Of a stretch of 34,726 nt of DNA, positions 24,034 to 33,201 are shown piece after piece; position 1 is the first letter of the stretch, and the number at the start of each line of letters is the position of its first letter. A program made the translations under genes and the position numbers. The stretch is from positions 1 through 34,726 of the forward strand of contig JAQXDK010000027.1 in NCBI GenBank assembly GCA_029251405.1, read 5' to 3'. The notes beneath the pieces were generated by a model. It saw nothing but the letters and a program-made list of their open reading frames with translations. It was not told the origin of the DNA and ran no database searches. Origin of the DNA: Flavobacteriales bacterium (GTDB lineage: Bacteria; Bacteroidota; Bacteroidia; Flavobacteriales_D; Parvicellaceae).

Positions 24034-24041
24034 CAAATATA
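24034..24041 (-). promoter_or_regulatory. -7 box of the SOUL-DUF983 operon
   Basis: The complement reads TATATTTG, exact for TAnnTTTG, 12 nt before the SOUL ATG. There is no TTG at the usual -33 distance. The sequence CTTATATTTGTT at this box is identical to that at the proteorhodopsin -7 box. A TAAACAA half-site (24030-24036) overlaps its downstream edge. Confidence 0.5.
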
Positions 24042-24055
24042 AGAAATTAAATCTT

Positions 24056-24087
24056 TTGTTTAGATTTACACTGTAAAAGTTAAACAA
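24056..24087. promoter_or_regulatory. Candidate operator TTGTTTA-N18-TAAACAA ahead of the DUF429-photolyase operon
   Basis: TTGTTTA at 24056-24062 and its reverse complement TAAACAA at 24081-24087 are separated by exactly 18 nt and end one base before the DUF429 ATG. Counting the bases outside, the arms match for 9 bp (24054-24062 and 24081-24089). The same geometry occurs twice upstream of proteorhodopsin. It may bind a dimeric repressor; the regulator is not in the window. Confidence 0.5.
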
Positions 24088-24088
24088 A

Positions 24089-24787
24089 ATGTTTGTTGGA
24101 ATTGATGGCTTCTTAAATAATTGGTGTATTTGTAAAATAATAAATGAAAAAATTGTAGTTACTGTAGAGCCAAATATAATTAATGCAACAAAATCAGTAT
24201 CTAAAAGTAAACTTACCTTAATAGATATTCCAATAGGATTATCATCAAAAAACATTAATAGAAGTATTGATTTTAAACTAAGAAAATTATTACCAAAAGG
24301 GAAAAAAAGCAGTGTTTTTACCCCACCTTGTAGAAAAGCAGTTTATGCACCAAATTATTTGGCTGCTAAGGAAATAAACATAACAGAAACTTTAAAAAGC
24401 ATATCTATTCAATCTTGGAATATTAGTAATAAAATCAAAGAAGTTGATGAATTTTTAATTATCAATAACGATTACAACCTACATGAAGCACATCCAGAAT
24501 TTTGCTTTTTAAATTTAAATAATAATATCCCCTTGTCTGACGGTAAAAAAACAAAGGAGGGCATTAAAAAAAGAATACAAATATTGAATAATCATATTAA
24601 AAATTGTGAAGACGTCTTAGAAGATAGTTATCAAAAATATTGCCATAAAAAAATTAAAAAAGACGATATTTTAGATGCCATGTCTTTAGCAGTTTCTGCC
24701 ATGTATTGGAAAAAAAATAACAAAAGAAAAATAACACAAATTCCTAAAAAAGATGAAAAAGGAATAGCACTTGAAATTTACTACTAA
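24089..24787 (+). CDS. DUF429 domain protein
   Basis: A 232-aa cytoplasmic protein matching DUF429: FVGIDGFLNNWCICKI at the start (an RNase H-like GxDgxxxGW strand), DIPIGL around 50, SSVFTPPCRKAVYAPNY, and HEAHPEFCFLNLN followed by KTKEGIKKRIQIL and a final DDILDAMSLAVSAMYW. The fold is RNase H-like with acidic residues at D-G-F, D-I-P, E-A-H-P and D-D-I-L-D-A, so nuclease activity is possible but untested. It opens the photolyase operon: its TAA overlaps the ATG of the photolyase gene by 1 bp. DNA repair or nucleic-acid processing linked to light damage is a reasonable guess. Confidence 0.83.
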   Translation: MFVGIDGFLNNWCICKIINEKIVVTVEPNIINATKSVSKSKLTLIDIPIGLSSKNINRSIDFKLRKLLPKGKKSSVFTPPCRKAVYAPNYLAAKEINITETLKSISIQSWNISNKIKEVDEFLIINNDYNLHEAHPEFCFLNLNNNIPLSDGKKTKEGIKKRIQILNNHIKNCEDVLEDSYQKYCHKKIKKDDILDAMSLAVSAMYWKKNNKRKITQIPKKDEKGIALEIYY

Positions 24788-26265
24788 TGAAGACTATAAA
24801 TTTAATATTTCCCCATCAACTATTTGAAAAATCTGAACTTCTTAAGTCTGAATATGTCCATTTTTTGATTGAAGAACATCTATTTTTTAATCAATATAAA
24901 TTTCATAAACAGAAAATATATTTTCACAGGTGCTCTATGAAAAATTACTATGATTTTTTAGAAAAAAAACAACTCGATATTAATTACATAAACTCCTATG
25001 AAAAGACTGCTGACATAAGACATTTTATTTCCAATATTGATAATCAGAAACATAAAGTAATTAGGTGTTTAAATCCAGAAGACAACTATTTAGAGAGAAG
25101 ATTAATTGAAAGTTGTAAAGATAACGGTCTAGAAATCCAATTTCACAACAATCCAGGGTTTATCAACTCAAGAGAAGATTTATCAACTTTTTTTAGAAAA
25201 GACAAGAAAAAATTATTTCAAACTTCATTCTATAAATCAGAAAGGCTAAGACTCAACATACTTTTAGATAATGACAAAAAACCTGAAGGAGGAAAGTGGA
25301 CTTACGATGATCTTAATAGAGAGAAATACCCTAAAAACAAAAAAACACCTGAAATAACTATTCCAAAAAAAACAGCAAATCATAAAGAAGCAATAGAGTA
25401 TGTAGAAAAATACTTTCAAAACAACTTAGGATCTTTGAATAATAATTTCATTTACCCTACGGATTTTAATAGCTCTAAAGCTTGGTATTTCCAGTTTTTG
25501 AAGGAAAGATTTGATGAATTCGGACCTTATGAAGATGCTCTTTTAAAGGAAAAATCAATCATTAATCATAGCATTTTGTCTCCTATTATTAATGCAGGTT
25601 TACTTTCTCCGAGATATATAATAGAGAGCACTATTGAATTTTATGAAAAAAACAATATTAGATTGAATTCTTGCGAGGGTTTTTTAAGACAAATCATGGG
25701 TTGGAGAGAATTCATAAGAGGCGTGTACTTATGTAAAGGTGTTGAGGAAAGAACTAGAAATTTTTGGGGATTCAACAGAACCATTCCAAAATCATTCTAT
25801 GAAGGTACTACAGGTATTGAACCTGTAGATGACACCATAAAAAAAATTAATAAAAGCGGCTATGCAAATCATATAGAAAGATTAATGATTATGGGGAACT
25901 TCATGCTTTTATGTGAATTTGATCCTGATGAAGTATACCGATGGTTTATGGAGCTTTTTATCGATGCTTACGATTGGGTAATGGTACCCAATGTCTATGG
26001 AATGAGTCAATTTGCAGATGGGGGATTAATGTCCACAAAGCCATATATCAGCAGCAGTAATTACATACTAAAAATGAGTGATTATAAGAAAGGTGACTGG
26101 TGTAAAGTATGGGACGCTCTCTTTTGGAATTTCATGGATAAACAACGATCATTTTTTATTAAGAATCCAAGAATGAGAATGCTTATCAGTAGTTTTGATA
26201 AAATGGAAGTCACTAAAAAAGAAAATCATTTAATTACTGCAGATAAATTTTTAAAACAACTTTAA
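24787..26265 (+). CDS. Photolyase of the PhrB-like/DPRP family, without the Fe-S CxxC pair
   Basis: A 492-aa flavoprotein of the prokaryotic photolyase family that includes Agrobacterium PhrB, a (6-4) photolyase. Family motifs: INLIFPHQLFE at the N-terminus, EGFLRQIMGWREFIRGVY (298-314), NFWGFNRTIPKSFY, IMGNFMLLCEFDPDEVYRWFMELF and DAYDWVMVPNVYGMSQFADGG (from 393), then KPYISSSNYI. PhrB binds [4Fe-4S] through four Cys, including a CxxC pair just after the MSDY motif. Here KMSDY (429-433) is followed directly by KKGDWCKVWDALFW with one Cys (C439); C376 may match another ligand. So the cluster is probably absent. I recall other family members with this short loop. The gene overlaps DUF429 by 1 bp and precedes the 138-aa gene by 4 nt. 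Confidence 0.85.
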   Translation: MKTINLIFPHQLFEKSELLKSEYVHFLIEEHLFFNQYKFHKQKIYFHRCSMKNYYDFLEKKQLDINYINSYEKTADIRHFISNIDNQKHKVIRCLNPEDNYLERRLIESCKDNGLEIQFHNNPGFINSREDLSTFFRKDKKKLFQTSFYKSERLRLNILLDNDKKPEGGKWTYDDLNREKYPKNKKTPEITIPKKTANHKEAIEYVEKYFQNNLGSLNNNFIYPTDFNSSKAWYFQFLKERFDEFGPYEDALLKEKSIINHSILSPIINAGLLSPRYIIESTIEFYEKNNIRLNSCEGFLRQIMGWREFIRGVYLCKGVEERTRNFWGFNRTIPKSFYEGTTGIEPVDDTIKKINKSGYANHIERLMIMGNFMLLCEFDPDEVYRWFMELFIDAYDWVMVPNVYGMSQFADGGLMSTKPYISSSNYILKMSDYKKGDWCKVWDALFWNFMDKQRSFFIKNPRMRMLISSFDKMEVTKKENHLITADKFLKQL

Positions 26266-26269
26266 GATT

Positions 26270-26686
26270 ATGGCGATTTACAATATTTCTTATACAGATA
26301 GAGAAACTGAAAGATTAATAAATACTGAATTGGGAAATCCCTACTCTTTATTACATAAAATTAAACTTAATGGAATTGGGTCTAGGAGAATGATAATTGA
26401 AAACTTTAGTACAAATATGAAGCATTTAGTTTTAAAAGTAAGTGGTATTCAATATGCCAATATAGAACTTAGACCAAAAGGTATAATTATACACATCAAT
26501 CAAGGAGTCTACACATACGCTTGGACAGTTCCTTTTTTTAGACTCAGTGTTTATAATGGAGATTTTTTTACCATTCACGGAAATGGAAATTTTATTCAAT
26601 TCAATAAAGAAAAAAGTTGGAAAGAAAATCGTACTTTTCTTCAGAAAATAATTCGGATGAAATCTTCATACAATCCTACAAAATAA
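26270..26686 (+). CDS. 138-aa protein of unknown function in the photolyase operon
   Basis: No family recognised. The protein has no signal peptide or transmembrane segment and looks like a small alpha-beta or PH-like fold: a short N-terminal Asn/Thr-rich helix (TDRETERLINTELGNPYSLL), then alternating strands (LVLKVSGIQYANIELRPKG, IIIHINQGVYTYAWTVPFF, NGDFFTIHGNGNFIQF) and a basic C-terminal helix. It lies 4 nt after the photolyase gene and overlaps the thioesterase start by one base (TAATG), so it is co-translated with both. A role linked to the photolyase is suggested only by gene order. Confidence 0.75.
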   Translation: MAIYNISYTDRETERLINTELGNPYSLLHKIKLNGIGSRRMIIENFSTNMKHLVLKVSGIQYANIELRPKGIIIHINQGVYTYAWTVPFFRLSVYNGDFFTIHGNGNFIQFNKEKSWKENRTFLQKIIRMKSSYNPTK

Positions 26687-27207
26687 TGTACCCAATTTTT
26701 AGATTACTTAGAGTTATTGCAAAAAGTAAGCTGCAAAAAAAAATCGCATTTGATAGTGCACATAATGAGTCTATTAATCTGAGAGTTCTTCCTCAAGACA
26801 TTGATCTTTTTATGGAACTCAACAATGGGAGATATGTTACACTTTTAGATTTAGGGAGATTTAGTTATGGTGCTAAAGTAAATATGGGTAATTTTTTAAA
26901 AAAAAATAACTGGTCACTAACCATAGTTGGAACCTACAATGAATATAGGTACAGACTGAGAATTTTTCAAAGATTTGAACTTCAAACTCAAATCTTGGGG
27001 TACGATAAAAAATGGTTTTATTTCTTTCAGAAAATTGTAAAAGATGGTAAGACTCATATGGCGTCCGTAGTAAAGTTTTCATATACTAGTAAAAAAGGCT
27101 TGGTATCACCAAAAGAAGTTACTGAAGCTATGGGCATTAAATATGAACCCGATCAATTACCTGATTGGATTCAAGACCTAACAAAGCACCTATTATTTAA
27201 AAAATAG
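26686..27207 (+). CDS. Hot-dog fold acyl-CoA thioesterase (THEM6/4HBT_2-like)
   Basis: The frame extends back to 26617, but the ATG at 26686, overlapping the previous stop as TAATG, gives the family-like start MYPIFRLLRVIAKSK (173 aa). DIDLFMELNNGRYVTLLDLGRFSYG is the 4HBT_2 signature, where the Asn-Asn-Gly-Arg-Tyr block forms the active-site helix; YRYRLRIFQRFELQTQILGYD and KWFYFFQKIVKDG are the following strands. These enzymes hydrolyse acyl-CoA or related thioesters. The natural substrate is unknown. It is the last gene of the DUF429-photolyase operon and converges on proteorhodopsin, with a terminator between. Confidence 0.85.
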   Translation: MYPIFRLLRVIAKSKLQKKIAFDSAHNESINLRVLPQDIDLFMELNNGRYVTLLDLGRFSYGAKVNMGNFLKKNNWSLTIVGTYNEYRYRLRIFQRFELQTQILGYDKKWFYFFQKIVKDGKTHMASVVKFSYTSKKGLVSPKEVTEAMGIKYEPDQLPDWIQDLTKHLLFKK

Positions 27208-27209
27208 CC

Positions 27210-27238
27210 AAAAAAAAAGGAGGGTAAAACCCTCCTTT
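27210..27238 (-). terminator. Terminator of proteorhodopsin, possibly bidirectional
   Basis: Arms AAAGGAGGG (27216-27224) and CCCTCCTTT (27230-27238) form a perfect 9-bp GC-rich stem with a 5-nt loop. On the - strand it is followed by a run of T (complement of A 27210-27218), a strong intrinsic terminator 19 nt after the proteorhodopsin stop. It can also form in the + transcript from the thioesterase, but with a poorer T-run. Confidence 0.9.
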
Positions 27239-27256
27239 AATTGATTAAAAAAATTC

Positions 27257-27991
27257 TTACTTAGAAGAACTAACGGCTAAATTGTAAACAACTAAACCAA
27301 ATCCTATTTTATTGATAGCATCACCAATGTTGTAAATTACATCCATTTGTAAATTCATCCCAAAGAAATCTCCTTCGGCGCCATACCAACCTGCAGTACC
27401 TACCATATATCCTATAGGATAGATAGCCCAACCGATTAATACAAATTTACATAAGATATTGTGAGCTTTTAATACTTCTCCACCAGCTGAAGTAGCCAAT
27501 GCTTTTGCTTCTCCAAACATGATTAAATATACAATGTAGAAATAAGCTAATCCTGAAGCTAATCCCCATAACCATGCATTATCTCTATCTACACCCTCTC
27601 CCCAGTAACCAGTTACTAACATTACTGTAGAAGCTCCTATTAAAGTCCACATTAATTTTTTTGTTGCTCCAGCTGCTCTTAGAATTAAATAAAATTCTAC
27701 ACACATTAATGGAACAGTCAAAATCCAATCTACGTAACGAAAAAATACCGGCGATCCATTTCCTGATGCCCAGTAGTCACGCATGTAATAATAGTGTACT
27801 GCTGCTATAAAAGTAATAAGTCCTGACACTAAAATGGATGTTTTCCATTTATTGTCAAAAGAACTCATTGATAAAAAGAAGAAGGCCGAAGCCGCCATCA
27901 TGGCCATACATCCTACAAAAAATGTAAAACCGACATAATCGTCAGTAGCCATTTTAGGTACTGCGAGTAACATATTGTTTAAAGTTTCCAT
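27257..27991 (-). CDS. Proteorhodopsin, green-tuned proton pump
   Basis: A 244-aa seven-helix retinal protein. Retinal attaches to K228 (DAINKIGF). The proton-pump triad is D88 (acceptor, FRYVDW), T92 and E99 (donor, CVEF), equivalent to GPR D97, T101 and E108; H66 (AAVHYYY) is the partner of the acceptor. The spectral-tuning position, GPR L105, is Met here (M96), the residue known from green-absorbing flavobacterial forms; a blue type would have Gln. It is not an NDQ sodium pump. It makes a light-driven proton gradient in the inner membrane. It is monocistronic with its own promoter and terminator; no blh or carotenoid gene is adjacent. Confidence 0.98.
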   Translation of the reverse strand: METLNNMLLAVPKMATDDYVGFTFFVGCMAMMAASAFFFLSMSSFDNKWKTSILVSGLITFIAAVHYYYMRDYWASGNGSPVFFRYVDWILTVPLMCVEFYLILRAAGATKKLMWTLIGASTVMLVTGYWGEGVDRDNAWLWGLASGLAYFYIVYLIMFGEAKALATSAGGEVLKAHNILCKFVLIGWAIYPIGYMVGTAGWYGAEGDFFGMNLQMDVIYNIGDAINKIGFGLVVYNLAVSSSK

Positions 27992-28011
27992 ATTATATTA
28001 AAATTTAACGT

Positions 28012-28043
28012 TTGTTTAACAAATATAAGCTCATAATAAACAG
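28012..28043. promoter_or_regulatory. Candidate operator A overlapping the proteorhodopsin promoter
   Basis: TTGTTTA (28012-28018), then 18 nt, then TAAACAG (28037-28043), one mismatch from the perfect inverted repeat. It covers the -7 box and the expected start of transcription, so binding here would repress. Confidence 0.45.
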
Positions 28044-28052
28044 AAAACCAAA
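28020..28052 (-). promoter_or_regulatory. Proteorhodopsin promoter, Bacteroidetes type
   Basis: The complement reads TTTG (28049-28052), a 21-nt spacer, then TATATTTG (28020-28027), exact for both elements of the Bacteroidetes promoter. Expected start of transcription about 28013, with a leader of about 20-25 nt. Two inverted repeats of the same design lie over and just upstream of it. Confidence 0.75.
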
Positions 28053-28055
28053 TTA

Positions 28056-28087
28056 TTGTTTACTTTTTTTTAAAAAATGTTAAACAA
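28056..28087. promoter_or_regulatory. Candidate operator B upstream of the proteorhodopsin promoter
   Basis: TTGTTTA (28056-28062), 18 nt, then TAAACAA (28081-28087), perfect arms (8 bp with the flanking A/T). It lies just upstream of the -33 box. Centre-to-centre distance between operators A and B is 44 bp. Confidence 0.5.
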
Positions 28088-28152
28088 TATGAGGTAGAAA
28101 GGGTAATTTATGTCAAAAAAACATTTACATTTTTTCGAAAAAATCCAACTTT

Positions 28153-31968: not shown

Positions 31969-33201
31969 ATGACATCTGAAACCTGGCTATATTTAATAAT
32001 TGGACTAGTTGTTTTTAATTACTTATTTTCAACGGTTTTAGACTTTATTAATGCTAAAAATTGGAGAACTGAAATTCCTCCAATTATGAAAGACTATTAC
32101 AACAAGGAAAACTATGTAAAAGCTAAAAACTATTCAAAAGAAAAAGGCAGAGTCAGTCTTATATCAAGTACAATAAGTAGTTCTATTACAATATTATTTT
32201 TAGCATCTGGAGGATATGGTTGGCTAAATAATACTATTTCTAATTACTATGAAATTCCTTTTTTAAAATCAGGATTTTTTTTTCTAACACTTTTTATTCT
32301 GAGTGATGTAATTAGTATTCCATTTAGCTGTTTCAACACATTTGTTATTGAAGAAAAGTATGGGTTTAACAAAATGACTGTAAAGACTTTTGTAATGGAT
32401 AAGATAAAAGGGTATTTCCTTACAATCATAGTTGGTGGTCTTCTTTTATTTGGAGCAATCTATCTTGTTTCTACAGTAGAAAAAGGATTTTGGCTTTGGC
32501 TTTGGATATCTCTTTCCGTTCTAATGCTTTTTGTAAACATGTTTTATGCAGATTTAATAGTCCCTATTTTTAATAAGTTAACCCCTTTAGAAACTGGAAG
32601 CTTAAGAGATAAAATTGAGTCTTACACTAAAAAAATAGGATACTCACTAAAAAACATCTACATAATAGATGGTTCTAAACGGTCTTCAAAAGCCAATGCT
32701 TTTTTTAGTGGTCTAGGACCTAGAAAAACTATTGCTCTTTATGACACTTTGGTAAACAACCATACAGAGGAAGAACTAGTAGCTGTTTTAGCTCACGAAG
32801 TTGGTCATTATAAAAAAAAACATGTACTTACTTCTTTATTTCTGTCTATTTTCCAGTTAGGGCTGATGTGTTTTTTGTTAGAAATTTGCTTGAAAGTTGG
32901 AGAGATATCGCAGGCTTTGGGGGGTGAAGATATAGAATTTCATCTTGGTTTGATCGCATTTGGAATTCTTTACAGTCCTCTGGGGACCATGTTAGGTATA
33001 GTTATGAATCTTAATAGTAGAAAAAATGAATTTGAAGCAGATGCATATGCAAAAGAGACCTACGATGGAGTAGCATTAGCTACTGCACTTAAAAAACTAT
33101 CTGTAGATAGTTTATCAAATCTCTATCCTCATCCGTTTTACACCTTTATACATTACTCCCATCCTCCATTACTTAAAAGATTAAAGGCGCTTAATGAATA
33201 A
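31969..33201 (+). CDS. M48 family metalloprotease, CAAX prenyl protease (Ste24) type
   Basis: A 410-aa integral membrane zinc protease. About seven hydrophobic segments surround the catalytic site HEVGHYKKKH (H276, E277, H280) and the third-ligand motif EFEADAYA (E354, D358). The N-terminal part, with FVIEEKYGFNKMTVKTFVMDKIKG, and DGSKRSSKANAFFSGLG before the zinc site are characteristic of Ste24/CAAX protease 1 homologues rather than HtpX, which is shorter. Bacteria lack CAAX prenylation, so it likely takes part in membrane-protein quality control. Second gene of the operon with the PfkB kinase. Overlaps the opposite EEP gene by 11 bp. Confidence 0.93.
   Translation: MTSETWLYLIIGLVVFNYLFSTVLDFINAKNWRTEIPPIMKDYYNKENYVKAKNYSKEKGRVSLISSTISSSITILFLASGGYGWLNNTISNYYEIPFLKSGFFFLTLFILSDVISIPFSCFNTFVIEEKYGFNKMTVKTFVMDKIKGYFLTIIVGGLLLFGAIYLVSTVEKGFWLWLWISLSVLMLFVNMFYADLIVPIFNKLTPLETGSLRDKIESYTKKIGYSLKNIYIIDGSKRSSKANAFFSGLGPRKTIALYDTLVNNHTEEELVAVLAHEVGHYKKKHVLTSLFLSIFQLGLMCFLLEICLKVGEISQALGGEDIEFHLGLIAFGILYSPLGTMLGIVMNLNSRKNEFEADAYAKETYDGVALATALKKLSVDSLSNLYPHPFYTFIHYSHPPLLKRLKALNE

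Follow-up and report, generated by a model that had tools for sequence, protein, structure and literature searches.

Does a single regulator switch photorepair and light harvesting together in a flavobacterium? The question is raised by a 34,726-nucleotide (nt) stretch of DNA from a Flavobacteriales bacterium (the window; contig C33 of the 2.23-Mb source genome, G000), in which the same 32-bp inverted repeat stands before a photolyase operon and before the proteorhodopsin gene. A first-pass annotation of this DNA had proposed that one regulator, with a protein of the LitR/CarH type as a candidate, acts on both transcripts. Our analysis supports that proposal: a LitR gene elsewhere in the genome heads a carotenoid operon that itself lies behind copies of the repeat, and the number of sites tracks the presence of LitR across genomes. 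We consider it very likely that the motif is the operator of this LitR homolog, and the sequences point with good probability to a LitR/CarH-type repressor, cobalamin based and released by light, that would control genes for photorepair, carotenoids, proteorhodopsin, and antioxidant functions.

The inverted repeat and its promoters

The motif, TTGTTTA-N18-TAAACAA, spans 32 bp and has 7-bp arms; a pattern with the arms reversed served as the control. All three copies reported at first pass were recovered, two of them exact, at 24056 to 24087 (operator 1) and 28056 to 28087 (operator 2), and one with a single mismatch, at 28012 to 28043 (operator 3); none is assigned to a strand. Operator 1 lies between a divergent SOUL heme gene and the DUF429-photolyase operon, and its right arm stops 1 nt before the ATG of that operon (24089). 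Operator 2 is the upstream site of proteorhodopsin, while operator 3 sits on the proteorhodopsin promoter and includes its sigma-A -7 box (TATATTTG, 28020 to 28027, minus strand), which has the consensus TAnnTTTG given for Bacteroidota in PMC9723704. The earlier observation of the repeats is confirmed.

The first-pass annotation had also held that these repeats are hard to explain by chance. The window by itself makes a weak case: with two mismatches allowed, five matches are found where 1.72 would be expected, and five are also reached in 5 of 100 shuffles. Genome-wide, however, the claim stands on overwhelming evidence. A scan of the source genome found 13 exact N18 sites and none of the reversed pattern, and when the spacer was left free between 3 and 33 nt, 13 of the 14 exact pairs had a spacer of 18 and one had a spacer of 15 (Poisson P of ~7e-21 for the peak at 18, relative to a rate of 5 per 31 spacers in the control). 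There was no excess at up to two mismatches in the same genome (118 versus 129 for the reversed control); such weak matches are therefore not evidence, and two-mismatch sites were not used as targets. The genome also holds 18 one-mismatch sites, and those among them that are intragenic, such as C7:24868 within a 1,223-amino-acid (aa) frame, probably arose by chance. Over 150 genomes, the source genome included, 268 exact sites were found versus 16 for the reversed pattern. We reject chance in AT-rich DNA on the strength of the reversed control, the spacer scan, and the shuffles, and regard it as near certain that the operator is real and conserved.

Pooling both directions of 131 distinct sites, which builds symmetry into the result, gave the half-site TTTTGTTTAAYTTTT. 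The same extension is seen when the gene-distal and gene-proximal halves are read apart (86 oriented sites, divergent ones taken both ways). The mirror of the half-site, AAGTTAAACAA, fits the 11-bp repeat nAnnTnnACAn that PMC8156234 gives for the CarH operator; four of its five fixed letters come from the arm, and 142 of 270 half-sites also have the fifth. We read the operator as a pair of outward CarH-type half-sites, laid out as 11+10+11 bp with centers 21 bp apart, or about two helical turns. Among 92 site-gene orientations, with orthologs counted separately, the TAnnTTTG box lies at offsets of -5 (23 cases), +5 (12 cases), and +16 (5 cases), and every other offset occurs once, twice, or not at all; the -5 register and the arm have letters in common, so that roughly 4 of 92 cases might be expected at this offset by chance. 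These three registers are about one helical turn apart, and a -7 box placed on the operator in this manner points to a repressor that covers the promoter.

The LitR homolog and the conservation of its probable operator

Two MerR-type frames (PF00376) were found in the source genome. A B12-binding domain distinguishes the frame at C47:32802-33680 (P0001, 292 aa), in which it is joined to a MerR head. Its start codon directly follows two sites, an exact one at C47:32709-32740 and a one-mismatch one at 32770 to 32801. The gene heads an operon that continues with an amine-oxidase-family flavoprotein, a likely CrtI-like desaturase judging from its position and family, and then with phytoene synthase and a lycopene cyclase domain. 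The N-terminal winged helix of the MerR type is present (PF13411, E = 2e-14; PF00376 above its cutoff), and the helical bundle matches B12-binding_2 (PF02607). A phmmer search against solved structures returned Thermus CarH as the top match. For a homolog of this protein, L124, which is 96% identical and comes from a Bacteroidetes MED-G20 metagenome-assembled genome (MAG), the predicted model has a mean predicted local distance difference test score (pLDDT) of 87.3, and its 12 best PDB matches in Foldseek are full-length CarH chains; behind the bundle, the model has an alternating helix/strand part that aligns with the cobalamin domain of CarH. Conservation was counted over 110 LitR loci taken without a prefilter for Wx9EH and not all independent, since loci L072 to L101 and L124 to L203 partly overlap (the same MAGs in two collections). 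The Wx9EH motif (W139, E149, and H150) is kept in 108 of the 108 loci that cover those residues, and E185 and H187, the Glu and His of ExHxxG, are kept in 110/110, the lower axial His included. The source genome also has a cob(I)alamin adenosyltransferase gene, which suggests that the cell could convert imported or salvaged B12 to adenosylcobalamin.

The sites recur in relatives, ahead of orthologs of LitR, proteorhodopsin, and the DUF429-photolyase operon (source genome included in the counts over 30 LitR, 21 proteorhodopsin, and 12 DUF429-photolyase loci). LitR lies behind an N18 site with no more than one mismatch in 20 of 30 loci, and LitR proteins down to 56 to 57% identity retain two sites though the spacer letters differ. 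In a named collection of 80 LitR loci, of which 13 were dropped (12 with no recognized start and 1 with a short upstream region), the site was found in 29 of 67 usable loci at up to one mismatch and in 37 at up to two, with Gillisia, Christiangramia, and Flavobacterium celericrescens among the carriers; in G. mitskevichiae and G. marina (L187 and L189), the litR gene is preceded by exact sites. For a spacer of 18, mononucleotide shuffles of these loci gave expectations of 0 exact sites and of 0.05 loci with one mismatch, and the second-best spacer, 10, reached 7 loci at one mismatch. The DUF429-photolyase operon has the site at up to one mismatch at 11 of 12 loci, with protein identity down to 46%, and in ten loci (eight of them exact) the site stops 1 nt before the ATG; the site at L314 was taken from the printed sequence, the automatic start choice having lain upstream, and at L315, where no start was recognized, no N18 site was seen. 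Proteorhodopsin upstream regions, counted at 21 of 22 loci (L107 lacked upstream sequence and was omitted), carry the site in 12 cases at up to one mismatch and in 16 at up to two, against dinucleotide-shuffle expectations of 0.15 and 0.85, respectively. Exact sites are likewise present before proteorhodopsin in L121 and L122, which belong to a different family of the order.

Site number follows the regulator as well. Of the 268 exact sites, 258 fall in the 126 genomes that have a full LitR match, 95 of which carry one or more, and 10 fall in the 24 genomes that lack such a match, 5 of which carry one or more (Fisher P = 6e-7 for presence against presence over the 150 genomes, relatedness uncorrected). 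Eight LitR-less genomes belong to the family of the source genome; five exact sites were found in G008, two in G025 (62% complete), and none in each of the other six. G008 was counted as LitR negative because its match (E = 2.4e-4) is to a short MerR frame only, a choice that makes the contrast slightly smaller. In two genomes of family f13, G059 and G065, 7 of the 13 exact pairs listed per genome have a spacer of 19 nt, and sites of this kind flank LitR on either side at a distance of no more than ~0.8 kb (G059:C10 and G065:C60); this is a natural change of spacer, with which the regulator may have coevolved.

Proposed mechanism and alternatives

We propose that the 32-bp repeat is the operator of the LitR/CarH-type MerR protein encoded on C47. 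In the dark, LitR would hold adenosylcobalamin between its helical bundle and its Rossmann domain and would occupy the paired outward-pointing half-sites TTTTGTTTAAYTTTT on or beside the -7 box, keeping RNA polymerase away. Light should release LitR, as it does CarH: cleavage of the Co-C bond would cause the protein to leave the operator, and LitR's own carotenoid operon, the two photolyase operons, proteorhodopsin, glutathione peroxidase, and further genes would be released together. We judge such light-released repression through cobalamin to be fairly likely.

Several observations weigh against this model. An 11-bp direct-repeat operator of the CarH type is absent here, the half-sites being inverted and separated by a 10-bp gap. 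The Pfam B12-binding domain of LitR is weak and falls below its cutoff, and the NCBIfam CarH equivalog, NF052513, scores 69.1 bits against a cutoff of 400, though it is still the best match. Tested against the classical CarH cobalamin motif, ExHx2G ... SxV/T ... GG (PMC8156234), the source LitR fails, having ExHxxA for ExHxxG and AG for GG; the last position of ExHxx[G] is G in 56, A in 39, S in 13, and T in 2 of the 110 loci. After the Trp, the source LitR has Ser, and just 1 of 108 loci has a His there; in Thermus CarH, the His next to the Trp is described as the upper ligand after photolysis (PMC8156234). Exact sites are missing from 31 of the 126 LitR-bearing genomes, and G008, of the same genus and 83% complete, has five exact sites although a short MerR frame was matched in it rather than LitR; its LitR may sit in an assembly gap. 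Seven of the 13 exact sites in the source genome stand before genes with no evident tie to light, and no operator within two mismatches was found in the 6 kb examined around blh (beta-carotene dioxygenase). Same-genus proteorhodopsin promoters (L103 to L106 and L108) range from one to three mismatches, with three in L103 and L108 and two in L104 and L106, and the proteorhodopsin loci L118 to L120 have no site within two mismatches. This degeneracy at several same-genus sites suggests that the membership of proteorhodopsin in the regulon comes and goes. Finally, PMC3587595 cites a report on a flavobacterium in which proteorhodopsin is expressed constitutively, a warning that light control need not be general.

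The degenerate cobalamin motif and the replaced His are also what lend weight to an alternative in which LitR binds the operator but is triggered by something other than light on cobalamin, in a B12-independent or a redox or singlet-oxygen response like those of CarA and class II LitR. Glutathione peroxidase and redox proteins are among the targets, class II LitR is described as using a LOV (light-oxygen-voltage) partner, and CarA acts without B12 according to PMC8156234. That source attributes the B12 independence of CarA to a missing Wx9EH, whereas the flavobacterial LitR proteins keep both this motif (108/108) and the lower axial His (110/110), and structural comparison ranks CarH folds first; we regard a noncobalamin trigger as unlikely, if still deserving of attention. 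A more distant alternative is that the operator belongs to another regulator, such as the second MerR protein, encoded on C20, and that LitR is merely one of its targets. Apart from LitR, no further PF00376 frame was found in the genome; the C20 protein is 114 aa long from the first ATG, has no effector domain, and is perhaps MliR-like, a likeness drawn by description only. MliR itself, a Bacteroidota regulator of iron genes, lacks an effector domain (PMC9478572), and a SOUL heme gene and TonB receptors adjoin our sites; G008, with its five sites and short MerR match in place of a LitR match, would fit as well. Against this, no site within two mismatches lies in the 3.1 kb around the C20 gene, site number follows LitR over the 150 genomes even with G008 taken as a negative, and the LitR promoter has two sites of its own that are kept in relatives. 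On the absence of a nearby site and on the site counts, we rejected a role for the second MerR protein in binding the operator, and consider a regulator other than LitR improbable.

Least probable, to the point of being negligible, is that the repeat is a promoter element in AT-rich DNA, either the sigma-A -33/-7 pair or the signal of an alternative sigma factor. The TTG does resemble a -33 element, and the arms overlap TAnnTTTG boxes. Read as a sigma-A promoter (TTG, spacer, TAnnTTTG), however, the operator fails: its right arm is TAAACAA, which differs from TAnnTTTG, and the -7 box lies on the site in three other registers. Both halves, read separately, have the same extended consensus, the right arm may end 6 nt or less from a start codon, and the reversed control gave 16 sites against 268. 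The -7 registers and the symmetric halves led us to reject this explanation.

Predicted targets and relation to known systems

Targets of the proposed LitR operator were read from the 13 exact sites of the source genome and from 54 of the 63 exact sites of ten other genomes of the same genus; eight LitR sites were left out deliberately, and one was unlisted. Sites are intergenic in 66 of these 67 cases, and the exception, L288, arises because the DUF429 frame has an in-frame start farther upstream. The largest group is an operon of 6-pyruvoyl-tetrahydropterin synthase (PTPS), GTP cyclohydrolase I, an unknown protein, a short-chain dehydrogenase/reductase (SDR), and photolyase, all behind one operator (10 sites at 8 loci). 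It is followed by glutathione peroxidase (8 sites); an ATP-binding cassette (ABC) transporter operon (7 sites); DUF429-photolyase with SOUL, hydroxymethylglutaryl coenzyme A (HMG-CoA) reductase with a major facilitator superfamily (MFS) transporter, a GEVED/PKD protein of the type IX secretion system (T9SS), and a PNGase-F-like protein (5 sites each); a TonB receptor and a 79-aa protein (4 sites each); and an ABA4-like protein, cytochrome c, LitR (in the examined set), and proteorhodopsin (2 sites each). Six of the 13 sites in the source genome are linked to light, pigment, or photooxidation, namely, those of LitR-crt, proteorhodopsin, the two photolyase operons, glutathione peroxidase, and the ABA4-like protein, the last counted from its family name only; the others precede T9SS surface proteins, a TonB receptor, an ABC transporter, cytochrome c, and a small protein. 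The first-pass expectation of a light-linked gene set held for LitR-crt, proteorhodopsin, and the photolyase operons but did not extend to blh or to the seven targets without an evident light link. The presence of a shared 32-base operator before proteorhodopsin, photorepair, carotenoid, and probable B12 light sensor genes suggests that one sensor runs both the use of sunlight and protection from it.

HMG-CoA reductase and the divergent MFS transporter share an operator in L268, L270, L275, L279, and L292, and the source genome (L029) has a one-mismatch site there; this operator would tie isoprenoid supply to the regulon. The ABA4-like membrane protein lies behind an exact operator in the source genome (C24:88629; L021:6630-6661) and in G002 (C18; L251), and a carotenoid- or retinal-related role in bacteria is possible. 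The 79-aa protein is cysteine rich and conserved, and it stands behind the operator in L253, L269, L274, and L287. The product of blh is needed for retinal; in the source genome, the blh domain (C27:12980-13690; L299) is part of a 690-aa frame whose N-terminal part resembles lycopene cyclase by eye.

In the window, operator 1 is flanked by the SOUL heme-binding protein gene (PF04832; 23411 to 24022, minus strand), whose own sigma-A -7 box (TATATTTG, 24034 to 24041, minus strand) is just downstream of the operator. On the other side, on the plus strand, are the four genes of the photolyase operon: the DUF429 protein (PF04250; 24089 to 24787), a deoxyribodipyrimidine photolyase-related protein with DPRP and FAD-binding domains (PF04244 and PF03441; 24787 to 26265), an open reading frame with no Pfam match (26270 to 26686), and a thioesterase-like protein (4HBT_2, PF13279; 26617 to 27207). 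Proteorhodopsin (PF01036) follows on the minus strand at 27257 to 27991. A CrtO-like protein of the glycosyl-diaponeurosporenoate acyltransferase family (PF18927; 22460 to 23035) lies about 1 kb from operator 1 and has no listed site of its own.

Control of carotenoid genes by LitR/CarH (PMC8156234), and also of photolyase and folE, is known. In the open PubMed Central (PMC) literature, outside which most subscription papers lie, we found no description of the operator TTGTTTA-N18-TAAACAA, no LitR/CarH regulon in Bacteroidota, and no regulator of flavobacterial proteorhodopsin; the inverted operator and the reach of the regulon to proteorhodopsin appear new within this searchable literature. 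The analysis supplies a candidate regulator, an exact operator, a target list, and single-base predictions for the control of flavobacterial proteorhodopsin. It also describes a second, inverted geometry for CarH-type proteins that is useful for understanding how CarH-type tetramers bind DNA, and optogenetic work in Bacteroidota could use the operator as a part. Marine B12 supply would bear on rhodopsin phototrophy if the chromophore is indeed cobalamin. We see about an even chance for the broadest form of the model, in which a cobalamin-dependent photoreceptor repressor with its own operator class directly gates proteorhodopsin, photorepair, carotenoid synthesis, and isoprenoid supply (HMG-CoA reductase) in flavobacteria, such that light and B12 would jointly decide phototrophy.

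The arrangement in the window resembles the photolyase cluster that is enriched in marine Flavobacteriia with proteorhodopsin, in which photolyase and photolyase-related genes travel with proteorhodopsin (PMC5932025); that paper reports gene content, and its text as available contains neither the term MerR nor the term promoter. The GTP cyclohydrolase-SDR-photolyase operon behind one operator is comparable to the light regulon of class II LitR in Pseudomonas (PplR1 and PmlR2), which is described as regulating photolyase, GTP cyclohydrolase I, and neighboring SDR genes, with one site overlapping the -35 region. Class II LitR is nevertheless described as having the site T(G/A)TACA-N12-TGTA(C/T)A, a 4-helix bundle only, and a LOV-protein signal, and assignment of our protein to this class failed: the L124 model retains a part like the cobalamin domain, and the operator is not TGTACA-N12-TGTACA. 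The closer likeness is to CarH of Thermus thermophilus, Bacillus megaterium, and Myxococcus xanthus (class I LitR), with which the flavobacterial LitR shares the order of MerR head, helical bundle, and Rossmann fold, the Wx9EH motif and lower axial His, a position at the head of carotenoid genes, an operator on the promoter, and a half-site that fits nAnnTnnACAn. It departs from CarH in its ExHxxA, AG, and Ser after the Trp, where CarH has ExHxxG, GG, and His, and in its two outward half-sites (11+10+11 bp) in place of the tandem 11-bp direct repeats of CarH. Unlike that of CarH, its predicted regulon extends to proteorhodopsin.

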